A stretch of 64,000 nucleotides of DNA from Vibrio bathopelagicus (GTDB taxonomy: Bacteria > Pseudomonadota > Gammaproteobacteria > Enterobacterales > Vibrionaceae). Shown here in pieces: positions 18,294 to 36,976 of this stretch. The position numbers and the translations under genes are program-made. The notes below the pieces were generated by a model that was not told the DNA's origin, ran no database searches, and saw only the letters and a program-made list of their open reading frames with translations. Where the stretch lies: contig NZ_CP062501.1 of the NCBI RefSeq assembly GCF_014879975.1, forward strand, positions 868,001-932,000. The letters run 5' to 3'. Position 1 is the first letter of the stretch; each line of letters opens with the position of its first letter.

Positions 18294-18518
18294 TTATTTT
18301 TTCAAACCAACAATCTTACATGCAGAAACGACCGCACTTTCAAGGTCTGTTAAACGGCCTGCACTGGCTGGTCCTAGGACATTTGAATACAAGGCTAACT
18401 GCTTCTCAAATGATAAATCTAATTGGTTGTATAGATTTTGGCGAATTTGAGCGTGCTGTTGAGGCTCTGCGCTCGATAACCCTTCCAATGTATCGTAGAT
18501 GAGAGTTGTTGTATCCAT
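18294..18518 (-). CDS. Small protein of unknown function, 74 aa
   Basis: The ATG follows AAGGG by a normal distance, and a terminator lies downstream, supporting a real gene. The product is acidic and mostly helical, with no signal peptide or membrane segment. It contains one cysteine near the C-terminus (SACKIVGLKK). The family is not recognised. It is separated from the cbb3 operon by about 300 bases carrying degenerate tandem repeats. Confidence 0.65.
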   Translation of the reverse strand: MDTTTLIYDTLEGLSSAEPQQHAQIRQNLYNQLDLSFEKQLALYSNVLGPASAGRLTDLESAVVSACKIVGLKK

Positions 18519-18817: not shown

Positions 18818-20974
18818 CTAACGGATGTTAATGTTCTTATCTCGACTTTCATACATTTCAGGAGTGGTGTGCAACCCTCCGGCGTAACCTGCAGCTTCTA
18901 GTGTTTCTCTTACCTCTCGAACATGCTCTGCCGTGACAGGTTCGTTTCGGTCTCCAAGATTTGAACGCACAAACGTGATTAACTCAGCCAGCCTTTGATC
19001 CGACAGTACATCTTCAAAACTTGCCATTGGCATGAAGTTACGGTCCTTGTCGAGATAGGTTGGTTGTAGGCCACGTACCGTTACCGCGATGGTGTTGAAT
19101 GGATCGCTGTGCATGATGATGCCGTTATTCAACAATGTTGGTGCGATTGGAGCTCGACCCTTACCATCATCACCATGGCATGCCCCACAGGTTTGCCGAT
19201 AAGTGATGTAGATTTCACTGCCATAGGCGGCTTCGTCAAACCCTTTAGGCTGTAACGGAACTGCGTCACTAGCAATGGTGTTGTTGATGTCTCCACTGAG
19301 TAGGTAATAAGACATCGACTCAATATCTTCACGCGTCATCAAACTCAGGCTATTTTTCACTACGTCTGCCATACCCGCGAAAGCAGTACCTTTATCCGAG
19401 TGACCTGTATGTAAGAAGTCGGTGAGTGTTTTCTCATCCCAACCATCGACATAGAGCTCATTGGCAGTGATATCAGGCGCGTTCCAACCATCGATCAAGT
19501 TACCTTGGAAAATACGCTCTGCTATCAAAGCTTGCGCGATGTTTCGTGGTGTATGGCACTCCGAGCAGTGACCAAGTCCCGCAACCCAATACTTGCCTTG
19601 TTGCCACTTATCGACATCCTTAACTTCACCTTTAAGCTCTTCTGGTACCTGATAATCAATAGGATCGGTGTCCATGAATACAATGTTCCAGCCAAGTAAG
19701 CCTAAGCGAATATTGGATGGAAATATCATGCTGTTGTCGTCATTGCGTCGTGGCACTGCGGCGATTGACTGCATGTATTCCCATAAATCGATCATGTCTT
19801 GGTCGGTGAGGTATTGATAAGAGGTGTAAGGCATAGCAGGGTAGAGGTACCCGTTCTTGCCTTTACCTGCAACTAATGCGGCTCGGAAGTCGTCGAAGTC
19901 GTAGGTTCCTATTCCTTCAGTCGTGTGTGGGGTAATGTTGGTTGAATACACGGTACCGAACGGGGTAACAAACGGTAGGCCGCCAGCGAAGGGTTCGCCA
20001 CCTTCTGAGCTATGACAAGCCACACAGTCACCGGCATACGCTAGGTATTCTCCACGCTCAACAGACGATGTTTTTAAACTCGCGAGCCTTTGTTGCTCCA
20101 CTTCACCAGCGTGTCGGATGTAAGCCCCAAGCGCAAGTATTTCGTTCTCCGTAAGCTGCTCATCAAACGCAGGCATTAGGTTGTTCAAGCCGTAATTGAT
20201 AGTGTGTTGAATCTCTTCAATACTGCCGCCGTGAAGCCAGATATCATCAGAAAGATCTGGGACCCCAATTGCAGGGTTAGCGACAGCACCATCGGCATGG
20301 CAAGACGAACAGTATTTGACGAACAAGGTTTTACCGAGCTCGACTTTAACCTCGGGCACATTGGTATGACGTTGGTTGAGAGACGCTAGATAGTAGGAAA
20401 CTTTCGCCACCTCATCTGGACGCATGATTTCACTCCAACCCGGCATAGCACCGTTCCGACCTTTGGCGATCGAATGAATAACAGCTTCATCACTTCCGCC
20501 ATAGAGCCACTCTTGGTCTATCAGGTTAGGAAAGTGCTTTTGTCCCTGAGCGTTATCTCGGTGACAGGCCGCACAGTGAGTTTGGAACAGGATTTTACCG
20601 CTGTTCACGATCTCTGGAACTGAAGCTACCCCGTCCAACGTGGTTTCACTGGTTTGAGAGAATTGTTCATTAAGGCTGGTGGTCGGCGAACTGAGTTTAT
20701 CGTCGCTTTGCTCCCAATCGACTAATCCTTTCCATTCTCCAAGCCCGGGGTAAAGCACTAAATAGCCCGCAGATAGCAGAAATGCTACTGCATAACTGAT
20801 AAAAAGTATTTTAGGTGGAGGCGCATCTTTCTCTTCAATACCATCAAAGGTGCCAATGGTGTGATCGTGATCGGCCTTGTGATTGCTACGCCAGTACTTA
20901 ACGACAACAGACACCATCAGAACAAAGAATATTAAGGTTAATAGTACCGCCCATAGATTCCAAAATGTGCTCAT
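18818..20974 (-). CDS. CcoP fused to a triheme AdhB-like cytochrome c (pentaheme)
   Basis: A 718-residue fusion. Residues 1-290 are a CcoP subunit of cbb3 oxidase: two membrane helices (about 7-26 and 56-74), then two heme c sites, CAACH (134-138) and CSSCH (222-226). Residues about 300-718 match the triheme cytochrome subunit of membrane alcohol, aldehyde and gluconate dehydrogenases, with CVACH (317-321), CSECH (470-474) and CGACH (596-600). The intervening text FAGGLPFVTPFGTVYSTNITP is characteristic of AdhB. Normal CcoP is about 300 residues with two hemes. The start overlaps the ccoO stop by 4 bases. The extra domain probably brings electrons from a periplasmic dehydrogenase directly to the oxidase. 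No such dehydrogenase is encoded next to it. Confidence 0.92.
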   Translation of the reverse strand: MSTFWNLWAVLLTLIFFVLMVSVVVKYWRSNHKADHDHTIGTFDGIEEKDAPPPKILFISYAVAFLLSAGYLVLYPGLGEWKGLVDWEQSDDKLSSPTTSLNEQFSQTSETTLDGVASVPEIVNSGKILFQTHCAACHRDNAQGQKHFPNLIDQEWLYGGSDEAVIHSIAKGRNGAMPGWSEIMRPDEVAKVSYYLASLNQRHTNVPEVKVELGKTLFVKYCSSCHADGAVANPAIGVPDLSDDIWLHGGSIEEIQHTINYGLNNLMPAFDEQLTENEILALGAYIRHAGEVEQQRLASLKTSSVERGEYLAYAGDCVACHSSEGGEPFAGGLPFVTPFGTVYSTNITPHTTEGIGTYDFDDFRAALVAGKGKNGYLYPAMPYTSYQYLTDQDMIDLWEYMQSIAAVPRRNDDNSMIFPSNIRLGLLGWNIVFMDTDPIDYQVPEELKGEVKDVDKWQQGKYWVAGLGHCSECHTPRNIAQALIAERIFQGNLIDGWNAPDITANELYVDGWDEKTLTDFLHTGHSDKGTAFAGMADVVKNSLSLMTREDIESMSYYLLSGDINNTIASDAVPLQPKGFDEAAYGSEIYITYRQTCGACHGDDGKGRAPIAPTLLNNGIIMHSDPFNTIAVTVRGLQPTYLDKDRNFMPMASFEDVLSDQRLAELITFVRSNLGDRNEPVTAEHVREVRETLEAAGYAGGLHTTPEMYESRDKNINIR

Positions 20975-21585
20975 TGTGATACCTCCTGTGACGTATCTTT
21001 ACCAAGGCTTTGTAAATAGCGAATCAGAGCCTCACCTTTGGTTTTGCCTCTTACTTGCAATCTAGCGTCGCCAATTTCTTGATCGCTATAAGGCACGCCT
21101 AAGGTACGTAAAACTTCCATTTTGGCGCTGATGTCATCGCCTGTAAGAGTTTGCTCAAACAGCCACGGATAAGAGGGCATAATAGAGGTAGGTACGACTT
21201 TTCGAGGATCAATTAGGTGGATAACATGCCACTGGTCAGAATACTTTCTACCTAAGTTAGTGAGGTCTGGCCCTGTACGTTTGGAACCCCACAAGTTAGG
21301 AAACTCGTAGATATCGTCCGCTTCCTTATTCGGGCGTCCATTACGTTTCACTTCTGGTTCTAAAGGGCGAACCATTTGCGTGTGGCACACATGGCAGCCT
21401 TCGCTGATGTATATGTCTCGCCCTGCCAACTCAATAGGAGTGAGTGGCATCGCTAAACTGTTTTTGGCAATATCATCTCCACGGACAATGCTTGGCACTA
21501 CCCATACCAACAAAGAGAAGGAGGCGACGACAACGGTGGTCAAAATTAAAATGACGATAGAATGTGTAAAGTCTTTACTCATCAT
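20971..21585 (-). CDS. ccoO: cbb3-type cytochrome c oxidase subunit II (CcoO)
   Basis: This is the monoheme membrane-anchored cytochrome c subunit of cbb3 oxidase. The 204 residues comprise one N-terminal membrane helix (about 9-30), then GCHVCHTQMVRPL carrying the single CxxCH, then NLWGSKRTGPDLTNLGRKYSDQWHVIHLIDPR, which is diagnostic of CcoO. MPSYPWLF supplies the likely axial methionine. It overlaps ccoN and the fused ccoP by 4 bases at each end, so all three are translationally coupled. No ccoQ lies between it and ccoP, unlike the usual ccoNOQP order. Confidence 0.95.
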   Translation of the reverse strand: MMSKDFTHSIVILILTTVVVASFSLLVWVVPSIVRGDDIAKNSLAMPLTPIELAGRDIYISEGCHVCHTQMVRPLEPEVKRNGRPNKEADDIYEFPNLWGSKRTGPDLTNLGRKYSDQWHVIHLIDPRKVVPTSIMPSYPWLFEQTLTGDDISAKMEVLRTLGVPYSDQEIGDARLQVRGKTKGEALIRYLQSLGKDTSQEVSQ

Positions 21586-23009
21586 TTAAGCCCCTCATTA
21601 GCGGTGTGTTTAGCGTCATGTACTACTGGCATACGAACCGTTTTGTACAAATTGAATGCCATTAAGAACAATCCAAGTACAAACAGCGCACCACCAAAGA
21701 ATCGTAAGAACAACCAAGGTGCTTTAAAGTTCATAGCCTCTACAAAACTGTAAATCAGTTCGCCATTTTCATTTTGAGCGAGCCACATATAACCCTCACC
21801 GATGCCTGCAACCCAAAGTGCTATCGCATAAAGAGCGACACCAGCATGAGCGAGCCAGAAGTGCCATTTGATCAGTCGTCGTGACCAAAGGTCAGTTTGG
21901 CCCCATAGGCGTGGAATGAAATAGTAAAAAACCGCAATCCCTGACATTCCAACCCATCCGAGAGCTGCAGAATGTACGTGACCGATGATCCATTCGGTGT
22001 TGTGTGCCACCATGTTGAACCAGCGAATAGCAAGTAGTGGGCCTTCGAATGTCGCCAAGCAGTAGTAAAGAATCGCTGAGAAAAAGAATAAAAGAATGTA
22101 GTCGGACTTCAGCTTTTCTTTGTTTTGAAGCAGGGTCATTGCGCTATTAAACGCACCTGCCCATGAAGGGAGCCACAGGATCAATGACATCACGATTCCG
22201 ATGTTCTGAATCCAGATAGGAACCGAAGAGTAAACTAAATGGTGCGTTCCAGCCCAAGTGTAAAAACCGACTAAGCCCCAGAAATGGATCACAGACAAAC
22301 GATACGAATAGATAGGTCGATCCGCGGCTTTAGGTATGAAGTAGTAATTCATGCCAATCACACCGGCGGTCAGTAAGAAACCAACGGCATTATGTCCCCA
22401 CCACCACTGAACAATCGCATCTTGAGCCCCTGCAAATACAGAGTAGGACTTCATAGCCGATACTGGCATCGCTAGATTATTCACAATGAAAATCATGGCA
22501 ACGACGATAATGAATGCCGCGAAGAACCAGTTAGCCACGAAGATATGGCTCACTTTTCGCTTGGCAAGGGTGCCAAAGAACAACACCGCATAGAGCACCC
22601 AAACCAACACAATCATTAAGTCGATGGGCCATTCAAGTTCCGCATACTCTTTTGAGCTAGTGTGACCCGCGGGTAAGGAGACGACCGCAAGCAACAGAAT
22701 GAATTGCCACCCCCAAAAGACCATCCATGACAAACTTTTGTTGAACAGACCACAATGGCCAGTTCGTTGGGCAATGTACAAAGACGTCCCCATCAAAATA
22801 TTCACGACGAAGCCGTAAATAACTCCTGATGTATGTAGCGGGCGCAGTCGTCCAAATTGGAAGTATTGGGAATCAAAGTTTAAGACTGGCCAATATAATT
22901 GTGCGGCGAGAATCACACCGATGATCATACCTACAATCGCCCACACTAAGGATGCGACGATGAAGTATTTCACGACCTTAATGCTGTACTGCGTTGTCAC
23001 TTGTTCCAT
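21582..23009 (-). CDS. ccoN: cbb3-type cytochrome c oxidase subunit I (CcoN)
   Basis: This is the catalytic heme-copper subunit that reduces oxygen in the inner membrane. It has 475 residues and about 12 membrane helices. Metal-site histidines are visible in RPLHTSGVIYGF, WWWGHNAVGF (the CuB histidine region), TWAGTHHLVYSS (the CuB pair) and WIIGHVHSAALGW (heme ligands). It starts at the ATG following AAGGAG by 7 bases. cbb3 oxidases have high oxygen affinity and are used at low oxygen. The upstream cytochrome c gene ends 15 bases before it and is probably in the same transcript. Confidence 0.96.
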   Translation of the reverse strand: MEQVTTQYSIKVVKYFIVASLVWAIVGMIIGVILAAQLYWPVLNFDSQYFQFGRLRPLHTSGVIYGFVVNILMGTSLYIAQRTGHCGLFNKSLSWMVFWGWQFILLLAVVSLPAGHTSSKEYAELEWPIDLMIVLVWVLYAVLFFGTLAKRKVSHIFVANWFFAAFIIVVAMIFIVNNLAMPVSAMKSYSVFAGAQDAIVQWWWGHNAVGFLLTAGVIGMNYYFIPKAADRPIYSYRLSVIHFWGLVGFYTWAGTHHLVYSSVPIWIQNIGIVMSLILWLPSWAGAFNSAMTLLQNKEKLKSDYILLFFFSAILYYCLATFEGPLLAIRWFNMVAHNTEWIIGHVHSAALGWVGMSGIAVFYYFIPRLWGQTDLWSRRLIKWHFWLAHAGVALYAIALWVAGIGEGYMWLAQNENGELIYSFVEAMNFKAPWLFLRFFGGALFVLGLFLMAFNLYKTVRMPVVHDAKHTANEGLK

Positions 23010-23024
23010 AACAAGGCTCCTTGC

Positions 23025-23420
23025 CTACAGTTTTGAATTGCTGTCTGTTTTTGAGTCGCTAACTGAACTTGATTCCTTGCCGAGCATTGAATAGAAATAG
23101 GAGATATCGCGGATGTCTTGGTCTGAGAGCGTATCGGCTTGTTGCTGCATGAGGATCGCTAAACCACTGGTTCTCTCCCTTGTCTGATAATCTTTTAAAG
23201 AAGAGATGAGATAACCCACCTTTTGACCGCGAAGGTTAGGGTAGGGATCTTGCGTTGAGATGCCATCAACGCCATGACAAGTCATACACACCTTGGCTTT
23301 TTGTTTTCCTAACTCGAACTGCTCGTCGCTTGATTCTGCATAAACTGGATTCATGACAGCCGTCATTAGCAGAATGGAAAGTGCGGTTATGGGGTTAAAC
23401 TTTTGCTTATTTAATCTCAT
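23025..23420 (-). CDS. Periplasmic monoheme cytochrome c
   Basis: A small class I cytochrome c of 131 residues with a signal peptide (about 1-28, ending VYA) and one heme site, KVCMTCHG. The following PYPNLRGQKVGYLISSLKDYQ and a C-terminal helix are typical of the c553/c4-half group. The likely axial methionine is in AILMQQQ. It is the first gene of the oxidase operon and could be the diffusible electron donor to the oxidase. The tail after residue 115 is Ser/Lys/Asp-rich and probably flexible. Confidence 0.9.
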   Translation of the reverse strand: MRLNKQKFNPITALSILLMTAVMNPVYAESSDEQFELGKQKAKVCMTCHGVDGISTQDPYPNLRGQKVGYLISSLKDYQTRERTSGLAILMQQQADTLSDQDIRDISYFYSMLGKESSSVSDSKTDSNSKL

Positions 23421-23776
23421 TACTGATTCCCTTATTGAAGAAAAGAGCGAGTGCTTGATGATCCTCAGAAAACACTCACCTTGGTGTAAAGGTTATGCAT
23501 GCATAAGCGTTCTCGCTACTCAGTTACTCATTTTTATTGTCAATTTTATCGGTCGCTACGTATTCATCACGGTAATTGGATTACTTGTTAGCCATAAAAA
23601 AGTCGTTTTTATTTAAATTGAGCGACGCCAATAGCGCGGTAAACCGAGGATTGTGGGATTTCATGGAATATAGAAAAAACGTGGAAGGTGGACTGAAATT
23701 AGCGAGTGACTTACACCAATTAAATGACGAATATGAGCTAGACTCAGATAAGTGACCTTTTAAAATGGAGTTTAAA
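23421..23776. other. Divergent region between the oxidase operon and the SUOX-like gene
   Basis: These 356 bases should hold both divergent promoters. No canonical FNR site was found; TTGAT at 23455 lacks a matching second half. A possible small gene lies at 23585-23755. Confidence 0.5.
23585..23755 (+). CDS. Possible small protein, 56 aa
   Basis: An open frame from TTG 23585 to TGA 23755 encodes a soluble, charged peptide (LSDANSAVNRGLWDFMEYRKN, then NDEYELDSDK). Only a weak GGAT precedes the TTG, and an internal ATG at 23663 would give 30 residues. The composition looks protein-like, and the gene would end 21 bases before the SUOX-like start, suggesting co-transcription. The family is unrecognised. 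It is uncertain whether this is expressed. Confidence 0.35.
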   Translation: MLAIKKSFLFKLSDANSAVNRGLWDFMEYRKNVEGGLKLASDLHQLNDEYELDSDK

Positions 23777-24232
23777 ATGCGAACTGCACTTCTGTTTATA
23801 CTTTCATTGTGTTCATTTTCTATTTTCGCGACATCGGAACTCACCGTATTCGACCACTTAGGGCAAGAACATCAATTAAGCAGAGAACAATTGTTACAGC
23901 TCCCTCAAAAAGAAATTACCACGTCGTTACCTTGGGTTGATGGAGAGTTGGTTTATAGTGGTGTGACTTTACAAACCGTGCTTGAAACAATGGATTTACC
24001 CATTTCATCACAAGTAACTTTTGTGGCTTTGAATGACTACAAGATCGCTGTTCCTAAAGAAGACTTTGAGGATTATCAGCCGATCATTGCGATAAAACAA
24101 AATGGCCAGTTTATGTCGGTTAGGGACAAAGGACCGTATTGGTTGATCTACCCGCTTTCTTCGACTCCAGACATTGATAACACAGACTTCCATGCCAAGA
24201 TGATTTGGCAGATACGCGATATTCATTTGTAA
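23777..24232 (+). CDS. Periplasmic SUOX-fold (oxidoreductase molybdopterin-binding-like) protein
   Basis: A 151-residue protein with a clear signal peptide (about 1-20, MRTALLFILSLCSFSIFA). The ATG at 23777 has GGAG 6 bases upstream, and the in-frame ATG at 23765 overlaps that site. The mature part, with LPWVDGELVYSGVTLQTVLE, FVALNDYKIAVPKEDF and GPYWLIYPLSS, resembles the small stand-alone sulfite-oxidase-fold domain. The cofactor-ligating cysteine of true sulfite oxidases is absent, so a binding or sensing role is more likely than catalysis. It is followed 9 bases later by a membrane GGDEF-like protein, its probable signalling partner. Confidence 0.8.
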   Translation: MRTALLFILSLCSFSIFATSELTVFDHLGQEHQLSREQLLQLPQKEITTSLPWVDGELVYSGVTLQTVLETMDLPISSQVTFVALNDYKIAVPKEDFEDYQPIIAIKQNGQFMSVRDKGPYWLIYPLSSTPDIDNTDFHAKMIWQIRDIHL

Positions 24233-24241
24233 GGGTTTACT

Positions 24242-25267
24242 ATGAAAAAGCTGCTGTCATTGACTGCTGTTAAAATCGCTGTGTTATCTCTGGCAGCAGT
24301 GGTACTGACCGTTAATATCTACAGTGTTACTCGCATTAACGATATCAATAAGAGTTTTTCGAATAGACAAAATGAAGCAACTTGGTTCGTCTTTCAATTG
24401 GTAAAAGAATATGCCAACTTCTTAATGGTAAGCCGTTCTGAAACCATTGATTATGATGAGTTGTGGCTAGCATACGATATTACTTGGAGTCGTTTTGATA
24501 TATTGATTAATAGCAACGAGTCTTCCAATTTCATTAAATCTGCTAACTTTAAGCCTTATTTTACCGCCGAGTTTGAGAAGTTTAAGAGCTTGGAATCCTC
24601 CATTAAACTAGTTAGCCAAGGGGTCCTACCTAAAGAATCTTTGCAGAAGAAAGTCGATATTTGTTATCACACACTTGTAGATTTTATTAACGAAAAATTT
24701 CGCTTACAAAGCCCTGTTATTGAAGAGAACACGTCCATAGTAGGCAAATTTGTCGTTGTTCACCAAGTCAGCAGTGCCTTTCTCGTCTTTATTTTGTTGA
24801 TCACGGGTACCATTTTCTATCTCGACTTTTCTATCAAACGAAAACTCCATTCGACCGACTTTATTACAGGCTTTCGTAACAGAGTCTCGCTAATGAAATT
24901 TGTCAAAAATAGCTATCCAACAAACAGTAACTTCGACCTCTACTTTGTACGAATTAGAAACCTCAATGAGATTAACCAAAAATATGGGCTTGAATATGGA
25001 GACCTCGTGGTGAGTTCCGCTGCGAAGTCTCTGACCGACAAGATTCCTGAAAGCACAATTTCATTCCGTAGTAGCGGAAGTCAGTTTTTATTTTTTATTC
25101 CTGACCATCTATACGCGAGTGACGAAATTCAAGAGAGATTTAACGATGTACTCAGTGATTACATCTCGGCGGGTAACCTAGAGCTGATGATTGACGCCGT
25201 AGTTAGACATAAAAAAAACATCAGTTCTAAAGACATGATGGAGTTACTCACATCCATGCAAGGCTAA
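24242..25267 (+). CDS. Membrane protein with a degenerate GGDEF domain
   Basis: The 341 residues form a membrane helix (about 8-28), a periplasmic helical domain (about 30-170), a second membrane helix (about 175-197) and a C-terminal GGDEF-fold domain (about 203-340). The signature GG[DE]EF is replaced by SGSQF (278-282), so diguanylate cyclase activity is not expected. The TGFRNRVSLMKF and YGLEYGDLVV segments keep the fold. It probably acts as a receptor or scaffold in c-di-GMP signalling, controlled by the SUOX-like protein encoded 9 bases upstream. The pairing is inferred from gene order and topology. Confidence 0.8.
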   Translation: MKKLLSLTAVKIAVLSLAAVVLTVNIYSVTRINDINKSFSNRQNEATWFVFQLVKEYANFLMVSRSETIDYDELWLAYDITWSRFDILINSNESSNFIKSANFKPYFTAEFEKFKSLESSIKLVSQGVLPKESLQKKVDICYHTLVDFINEKFRLQSPVIEENTSIVGKFVVVHQVSSAFLVFILLITGTIFYLDFSIKRKLHSTDFITGFRNRVSLMKFVKNSYPTNSNFDLYFVRIRNLNEINQKYGLEYGDLVVSSAAKSLTDKIPESTISFRSSGSQFLFFIPDHLYASDEIQERFNDVLSDYISAGNLELMIDAVVRHKKNISSKDMMELLTSMQG

Positions 25268-25636: not shown

Positions 25637-28066
25637 TTATTTCTGATTGAGTGCCACAATCTTTTCGTCAGAGCTTGGTTCTAAAGTTGTTTGTTGGTCT
25701 AGAATGGCTCGAGGGTTATGGTCACGGACAAATTCAATGAACTCAATATAAGTTAATGGTGAGCTAAAGAAGTATCCTTGTATTAGGTCACAGTTGGCTC
25801 TTCGTAGGTGATGATATTGCTCGATCGACTCGACGCCTTCCCCAACAACAAAGGTGTCACAAGAGTGCCCTAAGTTAACCATCGATTCGACCATCTTACG
25901 GTCAGCCTTGTCCTTGGCGATATTATCTATAAAGCTCTTATCAATTTTAAGTTCATCAACAGGGTAGTGAAGTAGTTGGTTGAACGCGGTATAACCCGTG
26001 CCGAAATCGTCGAGGGAAACTTTTAGTCCTAAATTTCGGATACTCTCTATGGTTTGTACGGTCAGTTTCGTGCTTTTAACGTAACTGGTTTCGGTTATTT
26101 CTATGATGATGTTTTCGGGAGGCACTTGATAACGCTCAATCACTTTGCGAATGTTGTCGGCAAAATTACGATTGTAGAGCTCCATAGCTGATATATTGAT
26201 GGATAAGGTGCCTTTGTAGTTGTGAATTTCTGAGAGCTCTTTGTAGCTCTTGATTGCGGTGCTAATAACCCACATATCGAGTTTGGAGATCAAGTTGCTT
26301 TTCTCTGCGACTGGAATGAACTCATCTGGCCCTGCTTTAATATCAAACAGTGCAGGGCAGCGAATGAGACATTCAGCACCGTCAATATGGAGTGTTTGAG
26401 CATTGAAAATGGGCATAAAGCGAAGCTCAAAGTTGTCGCTCTCACAACATTCCAAAAGCCTTTTCTCAATAATATCGTGCCTTTCCAGCGTATGGAGCAG
26501 CTCTTCGCCGTAAACAATACGGCTCTCGCCATCACTGTGCGCTTTTGCGCTGATTAGCATTTCATCAATGCATCTGTGCCATATTTCTTCAAATTTCGGC
26601 GTGTCGACCTGCAGTACGCCAGTGGCAATCGAAAGTCTAAAACCATAATAATCCAGGAATGTTGTACCCGTTAGAGTGTTATTGATGTTCTCTATTTCTT
26701 CGTTTATCGATTGGTGTTCATTCATTTCCAATATGGCAATGAACTGGTTCCCGCCCAATCTTGCGAGTGAGTAATCGCTGCAACTGAACCCGAAAGCAGA
26801 CTGTTGATTTTGCAGCGTTTCTTTAAGCGATTTAGCTAGGCTTATCAGTACATTATCACCCACCTTTGCGCCATATAGGTCGTTGATTTTTCGAAAGTCG
26901 ATGATATCCCAGCACACCAAATAACAGCGGGGCTTCATTGAGCTTTTAATGCGAACATCGAGGTGACGTATGAATGAACGTCGATTAGCAAGTTTGGTGA
27001 GTTGGTCAAACTCGGCTTCAAATTTCAATTCTGTCAGTGAGTCTATATAGGCGTTCTTTAAGCCATCAATTTCACTTTGCCCCGACGATCGTTTGAAGTA
27101 TCTAAGTTTAAGTCCACCAATGGAGATTTCATTCAGCAGGTTTCTGAGGGGGCTGACCAATTGATAACGCACGACCAAGTGAACGATAAACATGATAGTA
27201 AATAGAGTGGCGAGGCTTCCAAGCATGGTTTGTTGAGCGATAACTGCTTTTTCTTGGTCGAACTTTTGTTCACGAATATCAACTTGGGCGAGGAAGTGTC
27301 GGCTTGTCATTTTTACATTGATGCTGTCTTCATTTTGTTCAAAAGACTGAATAACGAACTGAGTATTTTCAAGGTTCTCTTTATTTGATGAGGGCTCGAT
27401 CATAAGTTGCATGTTGTCGTCGCCGTTATACTGAGTCATCAAGCTAGACAGTTGTTTCATTGGACCATCTGCAATCAAAATGTAGCGATCTAAACTGTTT
27501 TTGGCTCGCTTATCTTGCGGGAGCAAATATGGGTCTATCGCAGCGACATAGGCATACCTGAGGCCTCCACTAACCGAAATGTAAGAAAAGCCGTCTTGAG
27601 TTAGCTCATCTTTGTTCATTAAAGACGCGTATATGTCGAAGACTCGTTCGTAAATGGTGTCGGGGATTTTTAATCCCTCGAATGGGTCCGCTCTCAAGGT
27701 TGAGAGTGTCAGATTGAACTTGGGATCGATGATGTAGATGTTACGTTGACCAAATTGATTAACATGGTTTTGGTTTAAAACTCGGAGTACGCGTTTCTCT
27801 AACAGGGACAAAGTGATGTAGTCGCTAGGCGTTTGAATGTAGCGCAAGAACTGCAATGATGCCCCAATATCTTTGACCAATAATGACAAGCCTAGCTGTT
27901 CATATTCAGCGGCGACCAAAGCGGTATTTACATCAGATTGCACCTCATCCAAATACATGTGTTTGGCGTGGTTAGATGCAAAGTTGTAGGTAACGATTCC
28001 CGCAATTGTGAGTACAAACATTAGGGTCGGAACTAATACAAAATACAGCTTCTTTAATATCGGCAT
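25637..28066 (-). CDS. MbaA-like transmembrane GGDEF-EAL protein
   Basis: An inner-membrane c-di-GMP enzyme of 809 residues: membrane helix (about 8-28), periplasmic domain (about 30-275), second helix (about 280-300), linker, GGDEF domain (about 345-515) and EAL domain (about 535-785). The cyclase signature reads GGNQF (438-442), so synthesis is unlikely. The EAL domain has ECLIR (565-569), DDFGTGYTAFNQL and KIDKSFI, so phosphodiesterase activity is plausible. Cys in place of Ala in the EAL motif is unusual but spares the metal-binding Glu. Gene order with an upstream PotD-like protein matches nspS-mbaA of V. cholerae, in which polyamines set biofilm behaviour. Whether it is the orthologue or a paralogue cannot be decided here. 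Confidence 0.85.
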   Translation of the reverse strand: MPILKKLYFVLVPTLMFVLTIAGIVTYNFASNHAKHMYLDEVQSDVNTALVAAEYEQLGLSLLVKDIGASLQFLRYIQTPSDYITLSLLEKRVLRVLNQNHVNQFGQRNIYIIDPKFNLTLSTLRADPFEGLKIPDTIYERVFDIYASLMNKDELTQDGFSYISVSGGLRYAYVAAIDPYLLPQDKRAKNSLDRYILIADGPMKQLSSLMTQYNGDDNMQLMIEPSSNKENLENTQFVIQSFEQNEDSINVKMTSRHFLAQVDIREQKFDQEKAVIAQQTMLGSLATLFTIMFIVHLVVRYQLVSPLRNLLNEISIGGLKLRYFKRSSGQSEIDGLKNAYIDSLTELKFEAEFDQLTKLANRRSFIRHLDVRIKSSMKPRCYLVCWDIIDFRKINDLYGAKVGDNVLISLAKSLKETLQNQQSAFGFSCSDYSLARLGGNQFIAILEMNEHQSINEEIENINNTLTGTTFLDYYGFRLSIATGVLQVDTPKFEEIWHRCIDEMLISAKAHSDGESRIVYGEELLHTLERHDIIEKRLLECCESDNFELRFMPIFNAQTLHIDGAECLIRCPALFDIKAGPDEFIPVAEKSNLISKLDMWVISTAIKSYKELSEIHNYKGTLSINISAMELYNRNFADNIRKVIERYQVPPENIIIEITETSYVKSTKLTVQTIESIRNLGLKVSLDDFGTGYTAFNQLLHYPVDELKIDKSFIDNIAKDKADRKMVESMVNLGHSCDTFVVGEGVESIEQYHHLRRANCDLIQGYFFSSPLTYIEFIEFVRDHNPRAILDQQTTLEPSSDEKIVALNQK

Positions 28067-36870: not shown

Positions 36871-36876
36871 TATAGT
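36871..36876 (+). promoter_or_regulatory. Probable -10 box of the riboswitch transcript
   Basis: TATAGT lies 12 bases before the aptamer, placing a start site close to the first paired base. The -35 region is weak. This is inferred from spacing to the aptamer. Confidence 0.4.
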
Positions 36877-36888
36877 AGCAACCGTTTG

Positions 36889-36955
36889 CTTCGTATAACC
36901 CCAATGATATGGTTTGGGGGTCTCTACCAGCTCCCGCAAAGTGCTGATTACGAAG
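36889..36955 (+). ncRNA. Adenine-sensing purine riboswitch aptamer
   Basis: The sequence has all landmarks of the purine aptamer. P1 is CTTCGTA pairing with TACGAAG. The conserved core TATAA, ATGATATGG, TCTCTACC and GATTA appears in order. The last element carries T where guanine riboswitches have C, which sets adenine specificity by pairing with the ligand. P3 (CAGCTC with GTGCTG) has one mismatch around the loop CCGCAAA. It resembles the well-known add riboswitch of Vibrio vulnificus. It lies 104 bases upstream of the deaminase start. Confidence 0.96.
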
Positions 36956-36976
36956 GGTTTAGATCACAATAGTGTT

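Follow-up and report, generated by a model that had tools for sequence, protein, structure and literature searches.

This study concerns a four-gene oxidase cassette in a stretch of 64,000 nucleotides of the Vibrio bathopelagicus genome (NCBI RefSeq assembly GCF_014879975.1, contig NZ_CP062501.1, positions 868,001 to 932,000 of the forward strand), which as a whole is referred to below as the window, and in particular the last gene of this cassette, in which the di-heme oxidase subunit CcoP and a triheme cytochrome, here called the arm, form a single chain. Our favoured explanation, to which we assign a probability of about 0.5, is that the cassette encodes a second cbb3 oxidase, lacking ccoQ, in which the arm is the electron entry and is fed mainly by a c4-like cytochrome encoded in the same cassette. 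In the usual view, cbb3 oxidases receive their electrons from small carriers at CcoP or CcoO, and here a three-heme wire is joined to this entry and is retained in marine gammaproteobacteria as part of a cassette whose four genes stay the same. What is surprising is that the arm is widespread and constrained though the enzyme served by its relatives is mostly absent from the host genomes sampled, and this makes testable what feeds a terminal oxidase and whether bc1 can be skipped. The cbb3 oxidase and the triheme family are each known; a description of their combination, a CcoP-triheme fusion, was not found in full-text searches for it in an open-licence library.

When the products of the cassette were compared with protein families, CcoN matched TIGR00780 with 592 bits (cut-off 583.15), and its motifs RPLHTSG, WGHNAV, FYTWAGTHH and GHVH, which comprise His, Tyr and acidic motifs, align with those of 3mk7_A. 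The residues of these motifs have their roles at heme, at CuB and in the cross-link. CcoO matched PF02433 (207.9 bits) and NF011055 (233.5 bits, cut-off 218), and its TIGR00781 score of 196.7 is 4 bits short of the cut-off of 200.65. Residues 1-290 of the fusion are CcoP by TIGR00782 (188.6 bits, cut-off 179.95), contain the FixP_N domain PF14715 (30.8 bits, cut-off 24.9) and match the solved chains 3mk7_C and 8smr_G. Judged by sequence, the oxidase therefore has the features of the cbb3 type (C-family) that were tested for, namely CcoN, CcoO and a CcoP with two CxxCH sites. The gene for the monoheme cytochrome is followed after 15 base pairs (bp) by ccoN, which overlaps ccoO by 4 bp, and ccoO in turn overlaps the ccoP fusion by 4 bp. 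Because of this last overlap there is no space for ccoQ between ccoO and ccoP in the window's cassette, and ccoQ at this place is a feature that is common in cbb3 oxidases and not a defining one. The ccoQ-less operon that opens with its own small cytochrome c, as it was described in the original prediction, was thus borne out, and all 45 distinct loci compared keep the four genes. Like the canonical CcoNOQP enzymes (3mk7; 8smr/8snh), the cassette has the CcoN active-site motifs, a monoheme CcoO and a di-heme CcoP with N-terminal membrane helices; unlike them, it is without ccoQ, has its own c4-like cytochrome gene and has a CcoP with three more hemes. The genome of the window consists of two contigs and 5.67 Mb and has four PF00115 heme-copper oxidase genes. 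A canonical ccoN, ccoO and ccoP set, with a short ccoQ-like frame separating its ccoO from its ccoP, lies on the other, large contig, and its identity to the window's cassette is 55% for CcoN, 45% for CcoO and 34% for CcoP.

The frame of the fusion is intact, with an ATG start and zero internal stops, and direct reading confirmed the predicted union of CcoP and a triheme cytochrome in one chain of 718 residues with CxxCH sites at residues 134, 222, 317, 470 and 596. Among solved chains, residues 296-695 matched most of the length of four triheme subunits of dehydrogenases, 8gy2_B, 8hdd_B, 7w2j_C and 8gy3_A. The arm, whose structure was also compared by a Foldseek search and a second look with VIA, fits the AdhB-type three-domain triheme fold along its whole length. 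By raw score its best solved match is an alcohol dehydrogenase subunit and not 8gy3. The predicted model of the fusion had a mean predicted local distance difference test score (pLDDT) of 82.8 and a predicted template modelling score (pTM) of 0.78, and in it helix 276-298 runs almost directly into helix 302-314 of the arm, so that the arm as modelled would be continuous with CcoP.

The lineage of the arm was read from its stand-alone relatives. A scan of named genomes, taken over the best 80 of 590 confirmed loci, gave 28 fusions and 52 stand-alone triheme genes. The 2Fe-2S gene of a xanthine-dehydrogenase-family oxidoreductase was present at all 52 stand-alone loci, the molybdenum cofactor (MoCo) large subunit at 51 of them, the remaining contig stopping before it, and XdhC at 40; those large subunits that were read by eye start with signals that resemble the known twin-arginine motif. 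Neither the large subunit nor the 2Fe-2S gene of the molybdenum enzyme was found at any of the 28 named fusion loci or in the window. A tree was built from 16 arms, 53 molybdenum-linked trihemes, 14 others and four Protein Data Bank anchors, the fragments P0131, P0132 and P0134 and most fusions being left out; with its rows verified for context, it replaced an earlier tree whose rows were unverified in this respect. It gave a single fusion clade (100/100) nested inside a group made up of the arms and the molybdenum-linked trihemes (100/100). Two changes are required by the 53 linked rows, among which the arms are placed, and support for the exact sister of the arms in this group is weak (82/83). 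Outside the group are the anchors from alcohol, fructose and glucose dehydrogenases (8gy2, 7w2j/8jej, 8hdd) and likewise the aldehyde dehydrogenase subunit 8gy3, which is on a very long branch and the placement of which is unsure. On the evidence of these sequences the arm belongs to the triheme subunits of xanthine-dehydrogenase-family molybdenum oxidoreductases. The term AdhB-type, used for it in the original prediction, holds for the fold family but is too loose for the lineage. These molybdenum-oxidoreductase trihemes (with a large MoCo subunit, a 2Fe-2S subunit and often XdhC) are the nearest relatives of the arm and like it have three hemes and no hydrophobic tail; they are, however, stand-alone genes beside their enzyme, whereas the arm forms one chain with an oxidase subunit, and the enzyme did not turn up in most host genomes sampled.

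Stand-alone relatives were searched for with a length limit that shut out full-length fusions, and 18 of them, picked by similarity and not by context, were aligned with the separate triheme of a Psychromonas locus (L054). The arm keeps 59 of the 62 positions that are conserved in molybdenum-linked clades, including 33 of 33 in its domain 1; the same positions are kept to 89-100% in true molybdenum-linked clades and at 51 of 62 in other trihemes, 8gy3 being excluded from this count. Two further observations concern relatives of the arm. Seven five-heme chains of about 680 residues (P0159, P0181, P0193, P0194, P0198, P0206 and P0212) consist of the triheme unit and then two more CxxCH sites, with PF21342 among their domains, and chains of the P0159 type form a separate clade in the unverified-context tree, another natural extension of the triheme unit. 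In that same tree the short-contig fragments P0131 and P0134 branch outside all full-length fusions and may represent an older relative of the arm or one without the fusion.

The arm is also highly constrained. The five CxxCH sites and the candidate distal Met residues 177, 267, 381, 535, 648 and 650 were invariant across 40 aligned intact fusions. When the seven most distant fusions (L056, L057, L058, L093, L110, L152 and L164) were compared with that of the window, the identities in the three arm domains were 57-65, 59-62 and 53-61%, those in the two CcoP heme domains 46-60 and 39-55% and that in the membrane part 38-46%, so that in these fusions no other part of the chain is as well conserved as the arm. 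Nonsynonymous divergence (dN) was used alone, as synonymous divergence (dS) was saturated in most comparisons. In all 8 pairs the membrane part had a higher dN than the arm, and so had the CcoP heme region in 7 of the 8, the exception being L112 (0.046 in the arm and 0.041 in the heme region). By these measures the arm is conserved at least as much as CcoP itself and is not a passenger.

With presence taken at E <= 1e-110, 38 of the 118 genus genomes had relatives of the fusion, with identities to the window down to about 51% and at least 3 copies broken, as did 18 of the 394 genomes of the order sample and, among the 369 of the class sample, that of the window alone. The closest full-length proteins carry the names of Vibrio splendidus and its relatives. 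Gene context was followed at 20 fetched loci and the window and at the 28 named fusion loci, 4 of which were common to both sets, giving the 45 distinct loci mentioned above. All four cassette genes were together at 21 of 21 and 28 of 28 of these loci, two small cytochrome genes among the named loci being recovered by a frame search. The loci cover Vibrio, Photobacterium, Aliivibrio, Shewanella, Psychromonas and Microbulbifer. Neighbouring genes are common among close relatives and different across lineages, and therefore the cassette behaves as a self-contained unit; this comparison of neighbours, which had been proposed as a check, showed no dehydrogenase neighbour common to several lineages at the cassette loci examined. 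When residues 1-290 were used as the query in search of an unfused forerunner of CcoP, full-length fusions being excluded by length, no close sister was seen among the best 120 matches listed, which were fusion pieces and then di-heme CcoP proteins at about 40% identity or less. In three Vibrio genomes the cassette is broken (L069, L070 and L071), and there either ccoN or ccoO is also split or shortened; from these sequences it seems that the cassette is dispensable and is sometimes lost. Spread by plasmids was considered and set aside, since the only two records with the protein that are labelled as plasmids are replicons of 1.7 and 2.1 Mb and probably second chromosomes. At 3 of the 20 fetched and 1 of the 28 named cassettes, belonging to two distant fusion lineages, a prismane (hybrid-cluster) gene, PF03063, and a flavin adenine dinucleotide (FAD)/2Fe-2S reductase gene lie nearby (L055 1455-6040, L056 766-5411, L057 14934-17783 and L110 1-2555), with a sigma-54 activator also present at two of the four loci; the window has no such pair. 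Genes of this kind have a known connection with nitric oxide stress, and their presence here, whether by chance or as a hint at the conditions for the oxidase, is unexplained.

AdhB-type trihemes have molybdenum, pyrroloquinoline quinone (PQQ) and GMC dehydrogenases as partners, and the search for a partner in the window's genome, which the original prediction had called for, covered PF20256, PF05199, PF01011 and PF13618. It yielded nothing but proteins of other kinds. The sole MoCoBD_2 protein is a cytosolic-type xanthine dehydrogenase, of the kind that has no signal sequence (TIGR02965), both GMC proteins resemble choline dehydrogenase, one above and one below the betA cut-off, and there is no PQQ dehydrogenase of the PF01011 type, the only PF01011 matches being in BamB. 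Gluconate_2-dh3, the small subunit of gluconate-dehydrogenase-type enzymes, was not found in this genome either; it occurs in 3 of the 118 genus genomes, one of which bears the fusion (G461). The window's genome may have a dehydrogenase of another type than those searched for. When the molybdenum enzyme was searched for in the genus sample with L054 as the query (E <= 1e-100), it was found in 2 of 118 genomes (G418 and G432), both of them fusion-bearing (one-sided Fisher 0.10), and was unmatched in 36 of the 38 fusion-bearing genomes, including that of the window. In the order sample, searched with L133 (E <= 1e-150), 22 of 394 genomes had the enzyme, 18 the fusion and 4 both (G379, G182, G213 and G257), so that the enzyme was unmatched in 14 of 18 fusion-bearing genomes; of the two genus genomes that have the enzyme in this sample, G189 lacks the fusion. 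Among the 45 distinct loci only L054, one of the 20 fetched, has the molybdenum enzyme. Two other redox enzymes, each with cytochrome genes of its own, were observed in the window's genome. A TtrA-like twin-arginine (Tat) enzyme (L078, G000:C2:434500-444500) scored 1389.5 bits against the NF011567 cut-off of 1750 and is adjoined by two diheme cytochromes, and a SorA-like sulfite dehydrogenase (L084, G000:C1:2130000-2138000) scored 217.6 bits, far below the NF052245 cut-off of 600, and is adjoined by three monoheme cytochrome genes.

In the favoured explanation, the triheme cytochrome subunit of a xanthine-dehydrogenase-family molybdenum oxidoreductase has become a permanent part of CcoP. Electrons would enter at this arm, cross its three hemes and then pass both hemes of CcoP and that of CcoO, and O2 would be reduced at the heme b / b3-CuB centre. 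The triheme family receives electrons from an oxidising enzyme and CcoP is the electron-receiving subunit in cbb3 oxidases, and because an arm of this family hangs on this very subunit it would act as an inlet. The immediate donor in V. bathopelagicus would most likely be the c4-like monoheme cytochrome of the cassette, and hence the ordinary periplasmic c pool, because this cytochrome is c4/c554-like and is inherited with the oxidase at all loci looked at. Its best solved chains are cytochrome c554 (2zzs_A), c552 (1cno_A) and c4 (1etp_A), and it also matches 6q2u_A, a c4 chain that occurs as well in the Pseudomonas aeruginosa bc1-cbb3 entries 8smr and 8snh; a small cytochrome of the cassette type was not seen beside the molybdenum operons in the named-locus listing. 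In species that keep the molybdenum enzyme, this enzyme or its own cytochrome would be an extra donor to the arm. As for the built-in electron-entry arm that had been predicted, the arm does come from a family that serves dehydrogenases as their outlet, but a matching periplasmic dehydrogenase was unfound in the window's genome. Several points weigh against the small cytochrome as the main donor. The evidence for this role consists of linkage and resemblance, and the 59 retained positions equally suit continued docking of a dehydrogenase or a fold that is merely kept. The co-occurrence of enzyme and fusion in the order sample is somewhat above chance (one-sided Fisher 0.013, kinship uncorrected), and in Psychromonas (L054) the operon of the molybdenum enzyme adjoins the fusion operon convergently; therefore in some species a dehydrogenase is favoured as the partner.

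These last two observations, together with the lineage of the arm and the complete retention of its domain 1 positions, argue for direct wiring, in which a periplasmic dehydrogenase, ancestrally the 2Fe-2S subunit of the molybdenum enzyme, docks on the arm and O2 is reached without quinol and bc1. The fusion would then be a natural dehydrogenase-to-oxygen enzyme, O2 reduction being driven by the docked dehydrogenase without quinone, bc1 or a diffusing cytochrome, and this dehydrogenase would be the ancestral one in some species and one of an unrecognised type in the relatives of V. splendidus. Taken as a whole we regard this as doubtful: most fusion-bearing genomes of both samples gave no match to the enzyme, the window's genome has neither a PF01011-type PQQ dehydrogenase nor Gluconate_2-dh3, and where both share a genome (L133, L139, L151 and L054) the enzyme keeps its own separate triheme gene. 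The predicted bypass of quinol and bc1 is accordingly without support in this genome, a matching dehydrogenase not being found among the types searched. Flow in the opposite direction, the arm passing CcoP electrons to a periplasmic reductase, has a precedent in the tri-heme CcoP of Neisseria, which is a CcoP extended by one fused heme domain, derived from cytochrome c5, that is proposed to give electrons to NirK and so to support nitrite reduction (PMC2924362). The genome of the window also has other periplasmic redox enzymes such as the TtrA-like one with its two diheme cytochromes. We consider an exit unlikely, since the Neisseria extension is a single c5-type heme, whereas the arm has three extra hemes and is of a different family, matching dehydrogenase trihemes. 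Members of this family take electrons from an oxidising enzyme, and a gene for a periplasmic reductase was not seen by the cassette, where few neighbours were scanned by family. A cytochrome has been joined to CcoP in 6xkx/6xkz too, but in this case the chain is man-made, and the cytochrome cy added there is a monoheme electron carrier.

It is also conceivable that the arm has no specific partner and offers soluble cytochromes a larger surface or serves as an electron buffer, a heme store, which would suit both the failure to find a dedicated partner in the window's genome and the very different surroundings in which the cassette sits. For a non-specific surface, however, the constraint is strong, the arm being the best conserved part of the most distant fusions, and this makes such a platform or store quite improbable. 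In acetic acid bacteria, related subunits interact with ubiquinone, and the fold that the arm has in common with 8gy2_B and 8jej_C would be in keeping with oxidation of quinol by the arm at the membrane. In relatives of 478 and 486 residues the match to the arm stops near residue 440, the 8gy2 and 7w2j chains extending past its end, and the C-terminal hydrophobic region of acetic acid bacterial AdhB-type members, which is named in the title of 9jqa and is not universal, is missing from the arm. No hydrophobic tail was found in any of the 28 fusions (highest 15-residue mean hydropathy 0.25), a point weakened by its likewise being absent from all 9 other trihemes checked. We therefore give a quinol oxidase module only a very slight chance. 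The three broken cassettes could be taken to mean that the fusion is an artefact, with two genes joined by a sequencing error or by decaying read-through, but at these loci ccoN or ccoO is damaged too, so that it is the whole cassette and not the join that decays. As the same fusion is intact in many independent assemblies and the dN of the arm is low, an artefact has next to no chance, and the assembly error or frameshift that the original prediction had named as a danger is ruled out at the sequence level.

Table 1. Genes of the oxidase cassette and the two portions of the fused chain, with positions in the window
Feature	Position	Strand	Description
Small monoheme c-type cytochrome	23025..23420	-	131 aa, CMTCH at 45; c4/c554-like; first cassette gene
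ccoN, cbb3 oxidase catalytic subunit	21582..23009	-	475 aa; TIGR00780
ccoO, monoheme subunit	20971..21585	-	204 aa, CHVCH at 64; PF02433, NF011055
Pentaheme ccoP fusion	18818..20974	-	718 aa; last cassette gene
CcoP portion, residues 1-290	20105..20974	-	two N-terminal hydrophobic helices; hemes at 134, 222
Triheme arm, residues 296-695	18890..20089	-	hemes at 317, 470, 596

Around the cassette (Table 1), the gene of a Pas factor (PF09016, saposin fold) lies immediately downstream at 18294-18518 on the reverse strand. Divergent to the cassette are genes for a short PF00174 protein and a GGDEF protein (23765-25267, forward strand), and beyond this pair a GGDEF-EAL protein is encoded at 25637-28066 on the reverse strand. 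The product of the PF00174 gene (23765-24232), weighed as a possible donor, was rejected, as its mature part shows no cysteine and so no molybdenum ligand. Proteins of the GGDEF-EAL cluster occur within the stretch at 8 of the 21 fetched and window loci, in varying positions, and this is possibly just a common family. A loose FNR-like pattern, sought as a sign of microoxic control, lies near the start of 4 of 26 cassettes; as a related pattern failed to pick up the canonical ccoN promoter as well, it carries no information on such control. Further along, at 36871-36970 on the forward strand, there is a purine riboswitch (RF00167, 74.6 bits), which is the sole Rfam family above threshold in the window.

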